From NCBI GenBank assembly GCA_027021335.1, contig JALUUO010000074.1:1-35205 (forward strand): a DNA stretch of 35,205 nt, in the 5' to 3' direction. Positions 1-10,585 of the stretch are shown piece by piece. The notes below the pieces were generated by a model, which was not told where the DNA came from, did no database searches, and was given only the letters and a program-made list of their open reading frames with translations. This DNA is from Nitrospirota bacterium. GTDB lineage: Bacteria; Nitrospirota; Thermodesulfovibrionia; SZUA-242. The position numbers and the translations under genes are program-made. Each line of letters starts with the position of its first letter. Position 1 is the stretch's first letter.

Positions 1-1366
1 TGCCGGGGAGCCGACACAGGCTATTACTCAAGGTCGGCCACCTGCCACCGTAGCCTTACGTGGTGCCGATTATGTGGGACTTAGGCCCCGAATAGCTGTT
101 AATGTCGGCGACCGAGTGAAGTTGGGGCAGTTACTCTTTACGGACAAAAAAATACCGGAGCTGCGGTATACGTCGCCGGGTACAGGCAGAGTTCTTTCGA
201 TCAATCGCGGGCCGCGGCGGGCGCTTGAGTCCATCGTCATTGCGCTGGAAAGCGATCTTGAAAACGATGACGATATAATCTTTAACTCATACCTAGAGCA
301 TGAACTCCGTGGACTTGATAGAACGTCAGTAACGACCCTGCTACTGGAATCCGGTTTATGGATATCACTTCGATCCCGTCCCTTCAGCTCTGTCCCTGAT
401 CCGGAAACAGTCCCACATTCTCTCTTTGTCACAGCCATGGATACCAATCCTCTGGCGCCGTCCGTGACCAAGATAATATGGGATGATCCAGAGAGTTTTA
501 TTAACGGATTGACAGTAATCTCCAAGTTAACCGAAGGGAACGTGTTTCTTTGCACGGCACCTGGAGACCCTCTGTCCCCTCCTCCGATTAAAAATCTGAG
601 AGTTGCAGAATTTGCCGGTCCGCATCCTGCCGGTAACGTAGGCACCCACATTCATTTTCTTGACCCGGTAAGCAGGGGGAAGACGGTATGGCATATACAT
701 GCCCAAGATGTGATAGCCATCGGCAGGCTCTTTACAACCGGCCGCCTGAGCATGGAGAGGGTTATCTCCCTGGCCGGCCCTGCTGTGAAAAAACCACGTT
801 TGATCCGGACCAGAATCGGCGCATCTGTAAATGATCTAACCGCCGGCGAATTACGGGAAGGCCGACATCGGATTATCTCCGGATCTGTCCTGTCCGGAAC
901 CTTTTCTTCTTCTACGGCTGGAGCGAAGCATGAGTCTGGACGTTCCGCCCATATCGGTCGGTATCATCACCAGATAACGGTAGCGGCCGTTCCGGAAGCC
1001 GGGAAGAGTGAGCTCCTCGGCTGGTTACGGCCCGGTCTGCACCGGTACTCAACAAACAATATCGTGTTTTCACGGTTTTTCCGGCAAGGCCGGCACAGAA
1101 AATTCGACTTTACCTGTACCTTAAACGGCGAAAGGCGGCCCATATATCCGATCGGAAACTACGAAAGGATCATGCCGCTTGATATCTTGCCGACATACCT
1201 TTTACGTGCCTTAGCCATTCATGACATTGATGAAGCAGAGAGGCTTGGCTGCCTTGAACTTGATGAAGAAGATCTTTCACTCTGCTCGTTTGTTTCGCCG
1301 TCAAAACTCGACTACGGACTGATGCTCAGAGAAAACCTGGCCCTGATACAAAAAGAATTATCGTGA
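1..1366 (+). CDS. nqrA: Na+-translocating NADH:quinone reductase subunit A (5' end cut by window edge)
   Basis: NqrA is the peripheral cytoplasmic subunit of the Na+-pumping NADH:ubiquinone oxidoreductase and takes part in quinone binding. The frame is open to the left edge (first whole codon at base 2). Its first visible residues, AGEPTQAIT...VALRGADYVGLRP, match the NqrA N-terminus just after the usual MIxIxKGLDLPI opening, so only about 13 residues are missing. The lipoyl-like segment with GDRVKLGQLLFTDKK follows. A GTG at 74 lies in frame but is internal: homology clearly extends upstream of it. The visible 454 residues are slightly longer than the usual ~446 total. The stop overlaps the GTG start of nqrB (GTGA), so the two are translationally coupled. 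It heads a complete nqrABCDEF order. The identification is very safe because all five partner genes follow. Confidence 0.95.
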   Translation, partial: AGEPTQAITQGRPPATVALRGADYVGLRPRIAVNVGDRVKLGQLLFTDKKIPELRYTSPGTGRVLSINRGPRRALESIVIALESDLENDDDIIFNSYLEHELRGLDRTSVTTLLLESGLWISLRSRPFSSVPDPETVPHSLFVTAMDTNPLAPSVTKIIWDDPESFINGLTVISKLTEGNVFLCTAPGDPLSPPPIKNLRVAEFAGPHPAGNVGTHIHFLDPVSRGKTVWHIHAQDVIAIGRLFTTGRLSMERVISLAGPAVKKPRLIRTRIGASVNDLTAGELREGRHRIISGSVLSGTFSSSTAGAKHESGRSAHIGRYHHQITVAAVPEAGKSELLGWLRPGLHRYSTNNIVFSRFFRQGRHRKFDFTCTLNGERRPIYPIGNYERIMPLDILPTYLLRALAIHDIDEAERLGCLELDEEDLSLCSFVSPSKLDYGLMLRENLALIQKELS

Positions 1367-2547
1367 AAAAAGCCGAAAAAACAATACAGAGACATGAACT
1401 CCGGCAAGTGTATCCTTTCTATGAGACAGTTGACCGGTTTCTGTTTGCACGCACAGAAGCCACGATATCAGCGCCGCATGTTAGGGATGCCATCAATCTT
1501 AAACGAATTGCCGTGATCGTGGTCATAGCTCTTCTGCCCGTGATATTCATGGCCCTTTACAACACCGGGCTGCAGGCAAACCTTGCACTTGCAGAGCTGG
1601 GCATATCATCCGCAGCAGGCTGGCGCGGCATGGTGCTGGCATCTTTCGGCTTTGCAACGGCAGACCCCGACAGCATGGCAGGCAATCTGCTGTACGGCGC
1701 ACTCCAGTTTCTGCCGATCTTTACTGTTAACCTTGTGGTGGCCGGTTTCTGGACAATCCTGTTTGCCGTTATACGAAAACGATCCATAGATGAAATGTTT
1801 GTTATCACGGCGCTTCTTTTTTCCCTGGCCCTGCCGCCAACGATTCCCTTGTGGCAGGCAGCGCTTGGAATATCCTTTGCGCTGGTCTTTGGTAAAGAGG
1901 TATTTGGCGGCTTAGGAATGAATATCATGAATCCAAGCTTGGTCGGCCTGGCCTTTCTCTATTTTGCGTACCCGGCGCATGTTTCGGGCGAGACCGTATG
2001 GGTGGCGGTTGATGGCATCAGCCGGGCAACACCGCTGACGGCATTTACATGTCCGAACTTGAACATCTCTGCGACATGGACCGATTCATTTCTCGGTCTC
2101 ATCCCCGGCACTATGGGAGAAACCTCTGCACTGGCCTGTCTGATCGGCGCAGCCATCCTGATCGTCACCGGAATCGGTTCATGGAGAATAATGCTAAGCA
2201 TTTCGGGAGGAATGGTCGGCCTTTCTCTTTTTTTCAACTTGATCGGCAGCCAGTCCAACCAAATGTTTCAGGTCACACCCATGTGGCACCTGGTGATCGG
2301 CAGTTTTGCTTTTGCCACGGTATTCATGGCCACTGATCCTGTTACCAGCGCGCAGACCCTGCAGGGACAATACTACTACGGGATCTTGATCGGGGTTCTG
2401 GCTGTTCTCATCCGGGTAATCAACCCGGCCTTAACCGAAGGTATGGCACTTGCCATCCTGTTTGGCAATGTGTTTGCACCTGCCATTGACAAGGCGGTCA
2501 TAAATCGTAACATCAAAAGGAGGCTACGGCGAACCCATGCCGGCTGA
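1363..2547 (+). CDS. nqrB: Na+-translocating NADH:quinone reductase subunit B
   Basis: NqrB is the large membrane subunit carrying a covalently bound FMN and, in the Vibrio enzyme, riboflavin. It is 394 residues long with about ten hydrophobic segments beginning near residue 48. The flavinylation motif reads DGISRAT (217-223), with Thr223 as the expected FMN-phosphoester residue. The canonical form is D-x-x-S-G-A-T, so an Arg replaces the usual Gly here while NqrC keeps the Gly. The GTG start at 1363 overlaps the nqrA stop by 4 nt. The 3' end overlaps nqrC by 11 nt. The FMN-transferase gene apbE, needed for flavinylation, is not in the window and may lie elsewhere. Confidence 0.96.
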   Translation: MKKAEKTIQRHELRQVYPFYETVDRFLFARTEATISAPHVRDAINLKRIAVIVVIALLPVIFMALYNTGLQANLALAELGISSAAGWRGMVLASFGFATADPDSMAGNLLYGALQFLPIFTVNLVVAGFWTILFAVIRKRSIDEMFVITALLFSLALPPTIPLWQAALGISFALVFGKEVFGGLGMNIMNPSLVGLAFLYFAYPAHVSGETVWVAVDGISRATPLTAFTCPNLNISATWTDSFLGLIPGTMGETSALACLIGAAILIVTGIGSWRIMLSISGGMVGLSLFFNLIGSQSNQMFQVTPMWHLVIGSFAFATVFMATDPVTSAQTLQGQYYYGILIGVLAVLIRVINPALTEGMALAILFGNVFAPAIDKAVINRNIKRRLRRTHAG

Positions 2548-3346
2548 TAGCCTGACCAGGACATTCGGGGTTGCCCTTGGGGTCAGCCTGGCCTGCTCTT
2601 TTCTGGTTTCGATCAGCGTGGTTTCGTTGAAGCCGATTCAGCTCGAAAACGAGGAGATTGCCAAAACACGAACCGTGTTTACTGATCTTGATGTCATCGG
2701 TGATAAGGCCAGTATCGCCGATATCAGAGAAATAGTAGATTCTGTCCTGGTAGACCTGGCAGCAGGAGAGATCGTGCCGGAAGAAGCCTACACAAATACC
2801 CTGAACGTCATCGGTTTTGATATAGAAACTATGGCCGAGCATCCAGAGTATGGCAGGGAAATTCCGGCTGATCGGGATTTGGCCAAAATTCGCAGAGTGC
2901 CGCGATACATGGTGGTACATCTGGTTAAGAAACAAGGCAGGATCACCAAGTATCTTCTTCCGGTCTACGGCAGCGGTTTATATTCAACTCTGTACGGTTA
3001 CCTGGCCCTGGGCAGAGACCTGAAAACGATTGAGGGAATCACTTTTTATAAGCATGCTGAAACCCCAGGTCTTGGCGGTGAGATAGACAATCCTGCCTGG
3101 AAAACCCTCTGGAAAGGCAAGCAGGCCTTTGACGAGAAGGGAAACGTGAGAATTGAGATTGTTCATGGCCGGGTGGACCGGTCAAAGCCGGATGCCAAGT
3201 ACAAGATCGACGGCATTTCCGGCGCAACCTATACGGCGCGGGGGGTGAATCAACTTGTCAGGTTCTGGTTAAGCGAACAGGGCTTTGGCCCCTTTATAAG
3301 AAAACAGAAGGCGAAGTTGAAGAAATCGGGAGAAAAAACCTCATGA
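2537..3346 (+). CDS. nqrC: Na+-translocating NADH:quinone reductase subunit C
   Basis: NqrC is a single-span subunit with a large periplasmic FMN-binding domain. It has 269 residues. One N-terminal membrane helix (about 8-31) is followed by a soluble domain containing [10 protein letters not shown] (about 174-183) and the flavinylation motif DGISGAT (225-231), Thr231 being the FMN attachment site. The ATG at 2537 is preceded by an AAAGGAGG Shine-Dalgarno inside the end of nqrB. The stop overlaps the nqrD start in an ATGA arrangement. The C-terminal tail is Lys-rich (after about residue 254). The assignment is firm from motif, length and operon place. Confidence 0.96.
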
Positions 3347-3963
3347 CTAGATACCGAAAGATTTTTCTTGATCCTATTGTCAACAATAACCCCATTGGCT
3401 GTCAGATACTGGGCGTCTGCTCGGCCCTGGCCGTAACCATGAAGCTGGAGACCTCGATCGTGATGTCGTTGGCCGTTATATTCGTGCTGGCATTATCCAA
3501 CTTTTCGGTCAGCCTGCTTCGAAACCAGATTCCGCGCAACATACGAATCCTGGTCGAAATGACCATTATCGCCTCGCTTGTCATCATTGCCGACCAGTTT
3601 ATCAAGGCCTTTGCCTACGAAGTGAGTAAGCAGTTGTCCATCTTTGTCGGCCTGATCATCACCAACTGCATCATCATGGGCAGGGCAGAAACCTTTGCTC
3701 TTAAAAACCCACCTTTGGCCAGTTTTATCGACGGCCTTGGCAACGGTGTAGGCTACAGTATCGTTCTGCTGCTTGTTGGCTCGATCCGGGAACTGCTGGG
3801 CTCAGGCAAGTTGCTTGGAATACAGGTACTGCCGCTAACAACAGAAGGCGGCTGGTATGAACCCAACGGCCTGTTCCGGCTTTCACCAAGCGCGTTTATC
3901 CTGATCGGGCTTATGATCTGGCTGCTTCGAACAATAAAGCCGGAGCAGGTGGAGGAAGAGTAA
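3343..3963 (+). CDS. nqrD: Na+-translocating NADH:quinone reductase subunit D
   Basis: NqrD is a six-helix membrane subunit that pairs with its inverted paralogue NqrE. Between them they hold an intramembrane iron-sulfur centre ligated by two Cys from each. In this 206-residue protein the expected Cys pair is visible: Cys26 in GVCSALAV and Cys109 in [11 protein letters not shown]. The latter segment is typical of the NqrD/RnfE family. RnfE is the nearest alternative, but neighbouring nqrA/B/F rule out an RNF operon. The ATG overlaps the nqrC stop by 4 nt. The gap to nqrE is 17 nt. Confidence 0.96.
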
Positions 3964-3980
3964 AAAATAGGAGTAAAAAT

Positions 3981-4592
3981 ATGTTGGAACATTATTTCGG
4001 CTTGTTTGTCAGATCCATCTTTATCGAGAACCTGGCGCTGACCTTCTTTCTTGGCATGTGTACCTTTCTGGCCATCTCCCAACGTGTGGAAACCGCAGTG
4101 GGTCTTGGCATTGCGGTTACCCTGGTCCAGACGATCACTATTCCTATTAACAACCTGATATACACGTATGTTTTGCGCAAAGGCGCCTTGAAATGGGCCG
4201 GCATCACGGATGTGGACCTGACATTCCTTGGCCTGATCACCTATATCGGCGTAATCGCCGCCATGGTTCAGATACTCGAAATGGCGCTCGACCGCTATGT
4301 TTCCAGGCTATACCATGCACTTGGAATCTTTTTGCCCCTTATTACGGTCAACTGCGCCATCCTCGGCGGATCGCTGTTCATGGTGGAACGGGATTATGAT
4401 TTTATTGAAAGTACCATCTTCGGATTCGGTTCCGGAATCGGATGGGCGCTCGCCATTATCGGATTGGCCGGGATCAGGGAGAAGATGAAATACAGCGATG
4501 TACCACAGGGACTAAGAGGCACCGGTATCACGTTTATCACAGTCGGCCTTATGGCCATGGCATTCATGCTGTTTTCAGGAATTCGATTGTAA
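3981..4592 (+). CDS. nqrE: Na+-translocating NADH:quinone reductase subunit E
   Basis: NqrE is the partner of NqrD and homologous to RnfA. It has 203 residues, is strongly hydrophobic with six predicted helices, and carries the second Cys pair of the membrane iron-sulfur site: Cys27 in FLGMCTFLA and Cys125 in TVNCAILGG. An AGGAG Shine-Dalgarno lies 8 nt before the ATG. The conserved [12 protein letters not shown] segment follows helix 1. It is spaced 24 nt before nqrF in the same operon. Confidence 0.96.
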
Positions 4593-4616
4593 CGCGTAGG
4601 TTTTGAGTTAAAACTT

Positions 4617-5852
4617 ATGACCGACATATCACTTGTACTACTCGGCGTGATCATGTTCACGCTGATCGTCCTGGCTCTTGTGGCCTTCATTCTTGTTGCG
4701 CAATCAAAACTGGTTGCCAGCGGACAGGCCCGCATTATTATCAATAACAAGCCGGAGAAAAGCCTAACGGTTTCGATCGGCGGGAAACTGCTGAGCACCC
4801 TTGTCGAAAACCGGATTTTTCTCTCATCCGCCTGCGGTGGGGCCGGCACCTGCGGCCGGTGCAAGGTTCGGGTTCTGGAGGGAGGAGGCAGTATTCTGCC
4901 GACCGAGACCACTAAGATTAACCGGATACAGGCGCGTCAGGGCTATCGACTTGCATGTCAGGTTCCAGTAAAGGAGGACATGAAAATTGAAGTCCCGGCC
5001 GAGGTCTTTACGGTCAGGAAATGGGAGTGCCGCGTACGTTCGAATCGTAACGTGGCAACATTCATCAAGGAACTTATCCTGGAACTGCCGCCGGGTGAGC
5101 AGGTTGATTTCCGTGCCGGCAGTTATATCCAGATGGAGGCGCCGCCTCACACGGTCTACTACAAAGATATGGCGGTTGAGGAGCAGTACAAAAGTGACTG
5201 GGACAAGTATGACCTGTGGCGCTATGTCTCCAAAGTCGACGAACGGGTGGCTCGCGCCTATTCCATGGCCAACTATCCTGAAGAAAAGGGCGTCATTGTC
5301 CTGAATGTGCGCATCGCGCATCCGCCGCCGAGAATGCCGAACGTTCCTCCGGGCAAGATGTCATCCTATATTTTCAGTCTGAAGCCGGGAGACAAGGTAA
5401 CGGTATGCGGCCCATACGGTGAATTCTTTGCACGAGAAACGGACAATGAAATGATTTTCATCGGTGGCGGCGCTGGTATGGCGCCACTGCGCTCGATTAT
5501 TTTCGATCAATTAAAGAGGCTGCGGACAAAGCGGAAGATATCCTACTGGTATGGGGCACGAAGCCGCAGGGAGTTGTTTTACGAGGAGGATTTTAATGCC
5601 CTGGCTGACAACTTTGACAACTTCCAGTGGCACGTCGCACTGTCCGAGCCGCTTCCGGAAGACGATTGGGACGGACTTACCGGATTTATTCATCAGGTTT
5701 TATATGATAACTATTTAAAGGATCATCCGGCGCCAGAGGACTGTGACTACTATCTCTGCGGCCCTCCCCTCATGATTGCGGCCGTTACCAGGATGTTGGA
5801 TGACCTTGGAGTCGAACCGGAAAATATTCTGTACGATGATTTTGGAGGGTAA
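4617..5852 (+). CDS. nqrF: Na+-translocating NADH:quinone reductase subunit F (NADH dehydrogenase, 2Fe-2S/FAD)
   Basis: NqrF is the electron entry subunit: it oxidises NADH with FAD and passes electrons through a [2Fe-2S] centre. It has 411 residues. A membrane anchor (about 6-28) is followed by a plant-type ferredoxin domain with Cys73, Cys79, Cys82 and Cys114. A ferredoxin-reductase domain comes next, with the flavin motif RAYS (213-216), the nucleotide motif GGGAGMAP (283-290) and a C-terminal CGPPLM, ending in the typical YDDFGG tail. Length and domain order are normal. The small Cys-rich maturation gene nqrM, often placed after nqrF, is not seen; a CBS-domain gene follows instead. Confidence 0.97.
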
Positions 5853-6326: not shown

Positions 6327-6825
6327 CTCTTCTTTGGTTCCGGCCTCGAAAGCTTTCTGCATGCCACTGCAAAATGCTCGTTAACAACATGTAGCCAGCA
6401 GAATACAATTAGATTGTGTCCTTTCTTGCCATCGTGCCTCCTTACTAAAATTAGGCAGTATAGCACCTCCAAATCAGGACATTATCATTTTGGTATTACA
6501 GGTTTTTATCTTCTTTGAGAGATACCTCCCCACGTGCCGAAATTAATTAAGGTGTTAAAATGGCGCTTCATTTTCTCTTTACCTGACACTGACATAAGAC
6601 CGTACTTCACGGCAAACCCACAAAAAACCGACCTAAATGTAGTAAATCCAACAAAAATGTAGCAACAAGAGGGTGGTTCCCTTTTTCAACCCCTTACTAC
6701 ACTCTTTTTTTAATTGTTTTAAAGCAGGCATAACTATTGCTATCTTTTCATGAGTACTGTCACAATGTCTGAGCTGTTGTGCTGAAATTAAACCCTATTA
6801 CAGGAAAGAGGAGGTTAAAAGTGTT
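6327..6825. other. Gene-free interval between the nqr operon and the hao module
   Basis: About 500 bases without a convincing gene and clearly richer in A+T than the flanks. No clear factor-independent terminator follows the CBS gene. On the minus strand an orphan translation start is visible: a strong Shine-Dalgarno TAAGGAGG and an ATG at about 6435, whose reading frame (MARKDTI) stops after seven codons. It may be the remnant of a lost gene. The words AAATGTAG occur twice near 6637-6663. The hao Shine-Dalgarno AAAGAGGAGG is at 6805-6814. I could not settle on a promoter for hao. Confidence 0.5.
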
Positions 6826-8190
6826 ATGTGGTCTTTAAGTAAAATTCTTAAACTAGGTTCACTTATGGGAGTTATGACGTTTTTTTTATTCAGTACGTCG
6901 GCCTGGGCTAAAGAGGTGGTCTACCCTGATTTATCTCCCAAAAAAATTGAAATAAAGAGGGGATACACCCCTGAAGCTTTAAAGTGTATTGAGTGTCATG
7001 CAAAAGAGACACCCGGTATTGTAGCAAATTGGAAGGAAGGCCGGATGTCTCATGCCGGGGTCTCTTGTTATGATTGTCATGTCGTGCCCAAAGACTCGCC
7101 AATGGCCAGTCAGTGTAAAGGTGTAAAGAAGACCATGCCTAATGTTTATACGTCTCCCATGGTTAGCGCAAAAACTTGCGAGAGATGTCATCCGGTAGAA
7201 ATGGAGCAGTTCTCTAAAAGCGCTCATGCCAGACGTGCCGGCAAGCCCGTTATAGAGAAAGCCAAGTACCAGAAGCTCATGTATGATTTGGAGGGAGGAG
7301 TTTCCGGTGTTCCGGAAGGTCATGACCTTCGCACGGTGCCAAGACAAGCCGGATGTCAGATGTGCCACGGCACAGAGGTGAAACTTGAGGCTGATAACAA
7401 ACCTGATGATAAGACTTGGCCCGGCGGTGTAGGCACCCGTTACCCTGACGGCGGCATAGGCAATTGTTCGGTCTGCCATAATCGCCACTCGTTCAAAGTC
7501 TCTCAGGCCAGGAAACCCGAGGCTTGCGGTAAATGCCATATTGGACCTGATCATCCCAATATCGAAATTTATATGGCCAGCAGCCATGGACAGCTTTATA
7601 CCACTGAAGGTGAACAATGGAATTGGGACAGTCCTCCTGATGCCTGGGAACCTGGAGACTACAGCGCTCCGACATGTGCAACGTGTCACATGAGTGGAAT
7701 TGGAGATCTTTCAACAACCCATAATGTTACAGAACGCCTCTACTGGGATATGGCTCATGTTAAAAGTGTGGTGAGAAGCGGTGAGTATGGTGACGGAGAA
7801 AAGGGCCGTAAGCTTATGCGTAAGGTCTGTAACAACTGTCACAGTGAGCTTCATACAGATACTCACTTTGCAAAGCTGGACCGGGCTAATGAACTTTATA
7901 ATTCTTACATCGAAGGGGCCCAGAAAATGATGGATGAACTCAAGGCCAAAAAACTTCTTAAGAAAGATAAATGGAAAGATCCGTTCCAGGAACTGTTTTA
8001 CTTCCTGTGGCATCATGCAGGCCGAAGAGCACGTCATGGTACTGCCATGGATGCCCCGGACTACGCTCAATGGCATGGTTTTTTCCAGATGATGAACATC
8101 TATAAAGACATGGAAGACCTTTACAAATGGCGTATAGAAAACAATAAGATCGAGGCTTTAAGCCCGGTTATGTCGCCGGGGCCCTATTAA
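6826..8190 (+). CDS. hao: Octaheme c-type cytochrome, hydroxylamine oxidoreductase (Hao) family
   Basis: This periplasmic multiheme enzyme has 454 residues. A signal peptide is followed by cleavage near AWA-KE (residue 28). Eight CxxCH haem sites are present, at 54, 81, 118, 177, 214, 234, 284 and 335. Eight haems with this spacing define the Hao/octaheme reductase superfamily; haem 4 (177-181) would be the catalytic P460-type haem. No membrane anchor is seen at the C-terminus. The family includes ammonia-oxidiser and anammox hydroxylamine/hydrazine oxidases and the epsilonproteobacterial form thought to reduce nitrite. The neighbouring quinol-type cytochrome favours a reductive role, which is inference. 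A Tyr (Tyr413, in PDYAQWHG) lies in the C-terminal region where oxidative Hao carries its haem-crosslinking Tyr; whether it aligns is undecided. A good Shine-Dalgarno sits 11 nt upstream. Confidence 0.9.
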
Positions 8191-8220
8191 AAAATAAAAA
8201 GCTAGAAAACTCAAGACTGG

Positions 8221-8254
8221 TTCCTGGCGGCCCTCTGCAAAGGGCCGCCAGGAA
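8221..8254 (+). terminator. Perfect 14-bp hairpin between hao and amt
   Basis: Arms TTCCTGGCGGCCCT and its exact complement flank the six-base loop CTGCAA. The right arm is followed by GTTATAACC, not a run of T, so it may act as a partial terminator or as an mRNA-stabilising or processing element. Either would lower amt relative to hao expression or protect the hao transcript's 3' end. The structure is directly seen; its function is inferred. Confidence 0.65.
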
Positions 8255-8399
8255 GTTATAACCCTGAAACATTACAAGAATATGAAAGTGTAACTACTTG
8301 GATGAATAGACTGAAAGCTAAAGGCTGTTGATTAAAATGCTTAAGTCTTCAGGCTAAATACCTGAGCAGTTACTATTATTTTAAGAAACGGAGTTGGTC

Positions 8400-9719
8400 A
8401 TGAAAAAAGAAAAACTACTACGGGCTTTGGTTTCAGCCTTTTTTATCTCTATTTTTATTGTTACAAAATCTTTTGCACAGGATGATGTTGTAGCGGAAGA
8501 TGTTCAGAAAAACGCCGATTACATATGGACTTTGCTGGCTGCTTTTCTTGTCTTTTTTATGCAGGCGGGTTTTGCAATGGTTGAATCAGGTTTCACAAGA
8601 GCAAAAAACGCAGCCAATATTATCCTTAAAAATCTCATGGATTTCAGCCTGGGCTCTATTGCTTACTGGGCAATCGGATTCGGTTTGATGTTCGGTGTCT
8701 CCGAGACCGGCTGGGTCGGCACGACAGGTTTTTTTCTAAGTGATTTTAGTGTAGATAAAGATCCGTGGCTTTTTGCATTCTGGATGTTTCAGGTGGTTTT
8801 TGCAGCCACCGCCACAACCATTGTGTCCGGAGCCGTAGCAGAAAGAACAAAATTCATAGGCTATCTCGCATACAGTGTGGTTATATCAGCAATTATATAC
8901 CCTGTATTTGGAGGCTGGGCCTGGGGAAGTCTGTTTAAAGGTTCCGGCTGGCTCGAGAATTTGGGCTTCATAGACTTTGCCGGCTCTACCGTGGTTCATT
9001 CCGTGGGAGGCTGGGCCGCTCTTGCAGGAGCTATTGTACTTGGGCCAAGAATAGGAAGATTCAGAAAAAACGGCTCTCCTCTTCCCATTCCGGGCCACAA
9101 CCTTCCGCTTGCGGCTCTTGGTGTCTTTATTCTCTGGTTCGGCTGGTATGGATTCAACGCCGGCAGCACCACTGCGGCAAGCAGTGATATAGCTTTAATC
9201 GCAGTGACTACAACTTTATCGGCATCAGCAGGGGCGGCCTTTGCAATGATTACCACATGGATCAAGTTCGGCAAGCCGGATACAGCAATTAGCCTTAACG
9301 GAGCGTTGGCAGGACTCGTAGGTATTACGGCAGGATGCAGTAATATTTCTCCTTTCTTCGCAATTATTACCGGCATTGTTTCCGGGGTTCTAGTGGTTCA
9401 CGCCGATTTATTCTTCGAAAGAATAGGAATTGATGACCCTGTAGGAGCTGTTTCCGTTCATGGTGTGGCAGGTGCATGGGGAACATTAGCAGCTGGATTA
9501 TTCAACTCAGCAGATATGTTTAATATGAAAATCGTGGGAGTTCAACTTATTGGAATTAGTGCAGCGTTTCTATGGGTATTTCCTACGGCATTTATCATGT
9601 TCAAGCTTATAGATAAGACGATCGGCCTGAGAGTCTCTCCTCAGGAGGAAGTTCAAGGCCTGGATTACTCGGAGCATGGCTCTACGGCATACCCTAACTT
9701 CACAACTACTAATATTTAA
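8400..9719 (+). CDS. amt: Ammonium transporter, Amt/MEP/Rh family
   Basis: This inner-membrane ammonium channel/transporter has 439 residues from the ATG at 8400, which has an ACGGAG Shine-Dalgarno 6 nt before it. An in-frame TTG at 8394 lies inside the ribosome-site spacing and is less likely. An N-terminal signal-like segment (about 5-26) precedes about eleven helices. The pore's twin histidines are present as His200 (TVVHSVGGWAAL) and His354 (VSVHGVAGAWGT), and the family stretch GFAMVESGFTRAKN is at 57-70. The cytoplasmic tail keeps the conserved GLRVSPQEEVQGLDYSEHG. No glnK is adjacent, although amt and glnK are normally paired. Instead it sits between two multihaem cytochrome genes, which suggests a role tied to respiratory nitrogen chemistry rather than only nitrogen starvation. 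Confidence 0.95.
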   Translation: MKKEKLLRALVSAFFISIFIVTKSFAQDDVVAEDVQKNADYIWTLLAAFLVFFMQAGFAMVESGFTRAKNAANIILKNLMDFSLGSIAYWAIGFGLMFGVSETGWVGTTGFFLSDFSVDKDPWLFAFWMFQVVFAATATTIVSGAVAERTKFIGYLAYSVVISAIIYPVFGGWAWGSLFKGSGWLENLGFIDFAGSTVVHSVGGWAALAGAIVLGPRIGRFRKNGSPLPIPGHNLPLAALGVFILWFGWYGFNAGSTTAASSDIALIAVTTTLSASAGAAFAMITTWIKFGKPDTAISLNGALAGLVGITAGCSNISPFFAIITGIVSGVLVVHADLFFERIGIDDPVGAVSVHGVAGAWGTLAAGLFNSADMFNMKIVGVQLIGISAAFLWVFPTAFIMFKLIDKTIGLRVSPQEEVQGLDYSEHGSTAYPNFTTTNI

Positions 9720-9753
9720 ATTTACTTAAAATCAAAAGAAGAGGTTTACACCG

Positions 9754-10551
9754 ATGAAAGCTGGAATACTAGACAGGCTCAGGTCTTTCATTAGCAGGCT
9801 GGGCTCTAGTCCTGACGAAGATATACTTAAAGGAAAGCAGCTAAAAGAAAATCCGGGCGATAAGACCGCCGAAGCTTCGCCTAAAACACCTGGGCCTGGG
9901 AAAGAAGCCTTTTTGGTTGGAGCTTTGAAGGAATCTATAAGTAAGGTATCCGGCAGCCCGGAAAAAGGAGCGGAAAACGCTGAAAAAGGCTTTAAAGGCC
10001 GAACCCTTGAAACCTTGGGTGCAAAGGCCGTGGATGCAGATGAGAAAGTTCTGCGGTTTTCGAACAAAAGGCTGGTGCTTATAACTTCCATAGTAGTTGT
10101 GACTGTTATAGTTGTTTTTTACAGTTTTACAGTCTGGTCCGTCGGCTACACGTCTTCTGCGGAGTTTTGCACCGGTTGCCACGAAATGATGGAATCTTAC
10201 CAGGCGTGGAAGACATCGTCTCATTATAAAAATGAGTCCGGTGTGGTAGCAACTTGTGCAGACTGTCACCTGCCGACTGATATGATATCTAAAATCAAGG
10301 TGAAAATCATAACAGGTTCCAGGGATTCGTTCGTCCACTACCTAGGGGACCCGGAAAGCCTTGATTTCAAAGAACTGGCAATAAAGGCGAGAGAGAATAT
10401 CAGCGATGCATCATGTGTTCAGTGCCACAAAAACCCATTTCCTGCGCATCTAAGCAAAGGTGGTTTTATAGCGCACAGGGCTTTGCAAAGAGGGGCTGAA
10501 AAAAAGTGTGTCGACTGTCATAAAAACCTTGTACACACCAGAGATTCCTGA
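9754..10551 (+). CDS. Tetraheme membrane cytochrome c, NapC/NirT/NrfH family, with long N-terminal extension
   Basis: This is probably the quinol-oxidising electron donor to the Hao-type enzyme. It has 265 residues, with a single membrane helix (about 106-127) and four CxxCH haem sites at 139, 168, 221 and 252. The first site continues as CHEMM, resembling the CHxM haem-1 ligand pattern of NrfH. NrfH and NapC proteins normally start almost directly with the helix. Here about 105 residues precede it, predicted cytoplasmic, rich in Lys, Glu, Gly and Pro, and without a recognised domain. The start ATG has a GAAGAGG Shine-Dalgarno and no better start lies near the helix. It lies 34 nt after amt and is followed by a strong terminator, closing a three-gene unit. 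Confidence 0.88.
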   Translation: MKAGILDRLRSFISRLGSSPDEDILKGKQLKENPGDKTAEASPKTPGPGKEAFLVGALKESISKVSGSPEKGAENAEKGFKGRTLETLGAKAVDADEKVLRFSNKRLVLITSIVVVTVIVVFYSFTVWSVGYTSSAEFCTGCHEMMESYQAWKTSSHYKNESGVVATCADCHLPTDMISKIKVKIITGSRDSFVHYLGDPESLDFKELAIKARENISDASCVQCHKNPFPAHLSKGGFIAHRALQRGAEKKCVDCHKNLVHTRDS

Positions 10552-10553
10552 TT

Positions 10554-10585
10554 AATAAACGGCAGGCATATGCCTGCCGTTTATT
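10554..10585 (+). terminator. Strong intrinsic terminator after the hao-amt-cytochrome unit
   Basis: The arms AATAAACGGCAGGC and GCCTGCCGTTTATT are exact complements (14 bp) around the loop ATAT, followed by TTGTCTT. The AT-rich outer pairs give a T-rich trail on both strands. It separates the nitrogen module from greA. Confidence 0.85.

Follow-up and report, generated by a model that had tools for sequence, protein, structure and literature searches.

Gene Organization of the hao-amt-nrfH Locus

The window, a 35,205-nucleotide stretch of a contig from a Nitrospirota bacterium of the class Thermodesulfovibrionia (GenBank assembly GCA_027021335.1, contig JALUUO010000074.1), carries nqrA-F, a gene for a CBS protein, a gap of 499 bases (6327–6825) that is the probable promoter region, hao, amt, a NapC/NrfH-type gene, a terminator-like palindrome, and greA-pyrK-pyrD, in that order. 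The three genes of interest are all on the forward strand: hao (6826–8190) encodes a 454-residue periplasmic octahaem cytochrome assigned to the reductive (epsilonHao-type) hydroxylamine oxidoreductase family; amt (8400–9719), which likely starts at the ATG at 8400 rather than at the TTG at 8394, encodes a 439-residue paralogue of the Amt/Mep ammonium transporters; and the third gene (9754–10551) encodes a 265-residue tetrahaem membrane quinol dehydrogenase of the NapC/NrfH type. The palindrome (10557–10582), followed by a T-rich stretch on the same strand, resembles an intrinsic terminator and folds as a strong hairpin (−26.3 kcal/mol, z −8.3). CXXCH counts, profile scores, and folding confirm the initial annotation in describing an eight-haem Hao, an Amt with both pore histidines, and a four-haem membrane cytochrome that all share one orientation, with a strong terminator after the last; two details that it missed are a hairpin in the hao-amt gap and an N-terminal extension of the membrane cytochrome.

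The three genes are likely one operon; however, the 209-base gap between hao and amt (8191–8399) and the strong hairpin within it leave a single transcript unproven in the window. This forward-strand hairpin (8221–8254) has a 13-pair stem and no T-run, the stretch around it (8200–8262) folds with −32 kcal/mol (z −5.3), and it could be an mRNA processing, stabilizing, or attenuating element. In the second genome in which we found these genes together (G123), hao and amt are separated by 55 bases and amt and nrfH by about 20 bases, which suggests a single operon there. Upstream of hao, sigma-70, sigma-54, and CRP/FNR-like patterns scored no better than in shuffled sequences; no RNA families were found in the window, and a PHROGs search returned nothing useful. 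The third-position GC content (GC3) of the hao-amt-nrfH block is 41–46%, in line with that of the downstream genes. The nqrA-F genes (74–5852) form a complete Na+-pumping NADH:quinone reductase operon with a GC3 of 52–65%; based on this higher value and on the absence of NqrF, at E ≤ 1e-60, from the two other genomes of the source family, nqrA-F may have been acquired.

Hao Carries the Signature of Reductive Octahaem Enzymes

The hao frame encodes a signal peptide and eight CXXCH motifs (residues 54–339), all eight of which are present in every relative, and matches the Multi-haem_cyto profile with 109 bits. EpsilonHao enzymes have been defined by a tryptophan at the site of the cross-linking tyrosine of nitrifier HAO and a methionine eight residues earlier (PMC8940962, quoting Haase 2017). 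M408 and W416 of the window Hao correspond to this pair, with the tyrosine site placed as given in PMC8940962 rather than by an alignment with Nitrosomonas HAO. The pair is kept in relatives that span the site, four Nitrospira-type sequences having the tryptophan only, and tryptophan replaces tyrosine at the haem 4 (P460) cross-link site, as reported in that source, in all of the intact members examined. The structure model (pLDDT 70) has the HAO fold and matches 4qo5, 6h5l, and 1fgj with E values of 1e-14 to 6e-10; the top matches are IhOCC (4qo5) and the reducing HAO of Kuenenia (6h5l), with Nitrosomonas HAO behind. A published analysis concludes that HAO-like enzymes of bacteria other than anammox organisms mostly belong to the reductive form (PMC12758564). 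Based on these sequence and model features, and in particular on the missing cross-link tyrosine, we propose that the window Hao works in the reducing direction, a conclusion that is well supported but not proven.

An N-Terminally Extended NrfH-Like Cytochrome

The product of the third gene has one transmembrane helix and four CXXCH motifs and matches Cytochrom_NNT with 122 bits. We call it NrfH-like because its score against the NrfH equivalog model TIGR03153 (86 bits) lies below the cut-off of 134. Its nearest solved relative is Desulfovibrio NrfH, with which it shares the haem motifs, a methionine after the first haem motif, and the lysine and aspartate positions assigned to the quinol region.

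The protein begins with a cytoplasmic N-terminal extension of roughly 100 residues, encoded at 9754–10068 on the forward strand, which was found in only two of the 396 Nitrospirota genomes sampled, those of the window and G123. Within this segment there is a loose internal repeat, RSFISRLGSSPDE / KESISKVSGSPEKG. The two extended proteins are 60% identical overall and 67% identical in the haem part, and in our tree they form a lineage of their own that does not join the NrfH proteins of the nearest nrfH-hao loci (L083–L085). Plain displacement of the usual NrfH is disfavored, and a grouping with the L083–L085 proteins is rejected marginally (AU p = 0.045).

A Separate Branch of Amt Proteins Linked to hao

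The window Amt scores 436 bits against TIGR00836 (cut-off 343), and its twin pore histidines are H200 and H354. The source genome encodes three Amts, namely the window copy, a copy on contig C29 that is 72% identical to it and is followed by a P-II gene, and a distant one on C20; G123 encodes one hao-linked and one glnK-linked Amt. Our phylogenetic tree unites the two hao-linked Amts with 100/100 support on a stem of 0.38 and separates them from the glnK-linked copies of the two genomes; among the 396 Nitrospirota genomes sampled, this branch was found in these two alone. The changes specific to the pair spare the pore histidines and gates, and loss of Amt function is ruled out by the intact pore residues. 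No mark of specificity for Hao is seen in the window Amt. The C-terminal regulatory tail is mostly retained, though shorter, and GlnK control in trans is therefore possible. The lack of glnK pointed out in the initial annotation holds for the window contig, on which there is no P-II or glnK gene, but not for the genome, which has seven P-II matches on other contigs and the separate amt-glnK pair on C29. Two neighboring NifI-type P-II genes lie near nif-like genes on C2 (L199), suggesting nitrogen fixation.

Distribution and Origin of the Arrangement

A scan of genome contigs yielded 80 named loci whose Hao proteins are 58–78% identical to the window Hao, from Nitrospirota, Thermodesulfobacteriota (e.g., Thermodesulfatator, Desulfoluna, and Halodesulfovibrio), and a few other phyla. 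In 71 of the 80, nrfH immediately precedes hao in the same orientation; four loci are truncated by the start of their contig, nrfH follows hao in two, and three lack nrfH. At least 1.4 kb follows hao in 68 of the loci, and an amt gene lies beside hao in one alone (L082), which belongs to G123, a Nitrospirota genome of another family. The three proteins encoded there are 78% (Hao), 78% (Amt), and 60% (NrfH-like) identical to those of the window, and the genes have the same order and direction. Since the downstream genes differ between the two genomes, the recurrence of this three-gene order in another family points to more than chance. The conserved synteny that the initial annotation suggested searching for is thus real but rare, with one other genome showing it and a total of two among the 396 Nitrospirota genomes sampled.

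In the Hao tree, the window sequence groups with L082 and L085 (support 97) in a mostly Nitrospirota clade of eight sequences (99) that is nested in the nrfH-hao group, which argues that nrfH-hao came first and that hao-amt-nrfH arose from it. The module looks rebuilt, with the same Hao, a new or strongly changed quinol dehydrogenase, and an added Amt. Some sulfate reducers have a second Hao-like octahaem gene, about 25–29% identical, near nrfH-hao (L097:3710–5107, L144:6614–6928, and L161:3466–4626).

Nitrogen Metabolism Genes Elsewhere in the Source Genome

The source assembly (2.7 Mb, 121 contigs) is 96% complete, and our search of it bears out the absence of nrfA that was suggested for this locus: NrfA was not found, the one weak partial match being a pentahaem cytochrome better named ExtKL-like. 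Nor was a NirA-size siroheme protein found in this genome, whose siroheme proteins comprise DsrAB plus two small proteins that resemble sulfite reductases; the lineage is probably anaerobic. The initial annotation had named hcp as a gene to look for outside the locus, and a true Hcp is encoded on C22 (TIGR01703, 586 bits). A divergent NapA-like enzyme with a NapH-like neighbor is encoded on C1 and scores 331 bits against a family cut-off of 904. On C16 (L192), genes for multihaem cytochromes lie by those for a Qrc-like molybdopterin complex and a 13-haem cytochrome.

Comparison with Known Systems

We regard hao-amt-nrfH as a rare, derived form of a known module, the reverse-HURM pathway of Nautilia profundicola, in which HaoA acts with CycB and Amt is proposed to carry hydroxylamine; amtB of Nautilia is induced 4.5- and 10.3-fold on nitrate along with HaoA/CycB (PMC3701875). 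Common to both systems are a Hao without the cross-link tyrosine, a NapC/NrfH-type quinol partner, an Amt, an Hcp, and the lack of NrfA. The Nautilia module further comprises the periplasmic nitrate reductase Nap and an Fe–S partner protein (NAMH_1302 type). The Nautilia genes have distant locus tags (hao, NAMH_1280; cycB, NAMH_0559; amtB, NAMH_0215/0397), whereas hao, amt, and nrfH of the window form a single block. The nrfH-hao pair of sulfate reducers and Nitrospirota shares with the window a Hao of the same clade and a NapC/NrfH-type partner, but it lacks an Amt, and the window differs from it in gene order and in an NrfH of another, N-terminally extended lineage. NrfHA likewise has a membrane NrfH-type quinol dehydrogenase that feeds a periplasmic multihaem reductase, with pentahaem NrfA in place of octahaem Hao as the catalytic subunit; to our knowledge, canonical nrf operons contain no Amt.

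Within the same phylum, Nitrospira encodes an octahaem nitrite reductase (ONR) with Rieske/cytochrome b proteins by amt and glnK, for which assimilatory nitrite reduction has been proposed (PMC6606698, PMC5767232), and the Amts near ONR are highly expressed (PMC6606698). The ONR is of the same superfamily as the window Hao (about 36–42% identical) and also has amt adjacent. In contrast to the window, where Hao has no Rieske/cytochrome b genes beside it and the neighbors are nqr, CBS, and greA, the ONR region has a Rieske/cytochrome b electron supply, two or three Amts that fall on other branches of the tree than the window Amt, a CBS protein, and glnA/glnK. The layout of the f29 loci in our set agrees with this region, and these loci are presumably from Nitrospira. 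Six Nitrospira-type loci (L053, L060, L061, L064, L067, and L078) have amt genes, Rieske, cytochrome b, octahaem cytochrome, and CBS protein genes in one block; the CBS protein upstream of the window hao is 31% identical over 108 residues to that of the Nitrospira-type loci. Further precedents are Deferribacter autotrophicus, with amt near a nap-hao cluster (PMC6896113), and Dissulfuribacter and Thermosulfurimonas, ammonifiers that lack NrfA and have Hao homologues (PMC5276818). The arrangement, which the initial annotation presented as unfamiliar, is indeed rare, but its novelty was somewhat overstated given the Amt of the Nautilia scheme and the ONR-amt regions of Nitrospira.

Proposed Function and Alternative Explanations

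We posit, as a fairly probable reading, that the locus combines a nitrite/hydroxylamine reductase of the reverse-HURM type with an ammonium importer of its own. Electrons from menaquinol would pass at the membrane through the NrfH-like cytochrome to the periplasmic Hao; Hao would reduce nitrite (or NO/hydroxylamine) to ammonium, perhaps leaking hydroxylamine; and the Amt, a paralogue that would have split off from a glnK-linked Amt, would return periplasmic ammonium to the cell for glutamine synthetase. That a quinol dehydrogenase feeds a reductive Hao, as the initial annotation also predicted, is well supported by the Trp416/Met408 signature, the modeled fold, the nrfH-hao synteny in 71 of 80 loci, and the absence of NrfA. 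The ammonium recovery by Amt is plausible by analogy with Nautilia and Nitrospira. In favor of the reading as a whole we also count the NrfH motifs, the lack of a NirA-size protein, the presence of Hcp, the block in G123, and the 100/100 Amt clade. Against it we count the restriction of the block to two genomes and the lack of Amt in most relatives, the long hao-amt gap with its hairpin, the retained Amt tail, which makes GlnK control in trans possible, together with the lack of a Hao-specific mark, and a nitrate reductase candidate that scores under its family cut-off, which makes the source of nitrite unsure.

The dsrAB genes of the source genome, and the wide occurrence of this Hao clade in sulfate reducers, would also suit a role in detoxification, in which Hao and its NrfH-like partner clear nitrite, NO, or hydroxylamine before these can poison dissimilatory sulfite reductase and ammonium is a by-product; we consider this unlikely, given that it leaves a dedicated Amt paralogue beside hao in two families unexplained. 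Alternatively, the full reverse-HURM scheme may operate, with Hao stopping at hydroxylamine, Amt importing it, and Hcp converting it to ammonium. This has been proposed for Nautilia with Amt as the carrier (PMC3701875), and the source genome encodes a true Hcp, but the hcp gene sits on another contig and the Amt, a putative hydroxylamine carrier in this scheme, has the pore of an ordinary Amt in its residues; we find the full scheme quite unlikely here.

The three genes could also be neighbors with no shared function, the Amt being a second ammonium scavenger placed between hao and a cytochrome that serves other reductases. The gap and hairpin do allow separate units, and the block is confined to two of the sampled genomes; against this, the order and orientation recur in another family at 60–78% identity with different downstream genes, and the short gaps there suggest one operon, which makes such a coincidence very unlikely. 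An oxidative module, in which Amt imports ammonium, Hao oxidizes hydroxylamine, and electrons pass to quinone, finds a basis in the common superfamily of Hao and nitrifier HAO. It is exceedingly improbable in a DsrAB-containing genome of a probably anaerobic lineage, for an enzyme with its best fold matches among reductive enzymes and a family with tryptophan at the cross-link tyrosine site, as that site is reported, in every intact member examined.

Whether Amt takes up the periplasmic product of Hao, and whether that product is ammonium or hydroxylamine, has been a question since reverse-HURM was proposed. The window locus, where a dedicated Amt paralogue separates hao from the gene for its quinol dehydrogenase, is a compact three-gene set that makes the question testable in one place, and on the reductase-importer reading it would represent a reorganized version of nitrite ammonification in a Nitrospirota lineage that has dissimilatory sulfite reductase and lacks NrfA. 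We are cautious about a further idea, which we think very doubtful, that the three proteins associate at the membrane, with the Amt dedicated to the Hao product (ammonium/hydroxylamine) and the extension of NrfH docking to Amt or P-II; if true, this docking would tie quinol oxidation to nitrogen uptake.
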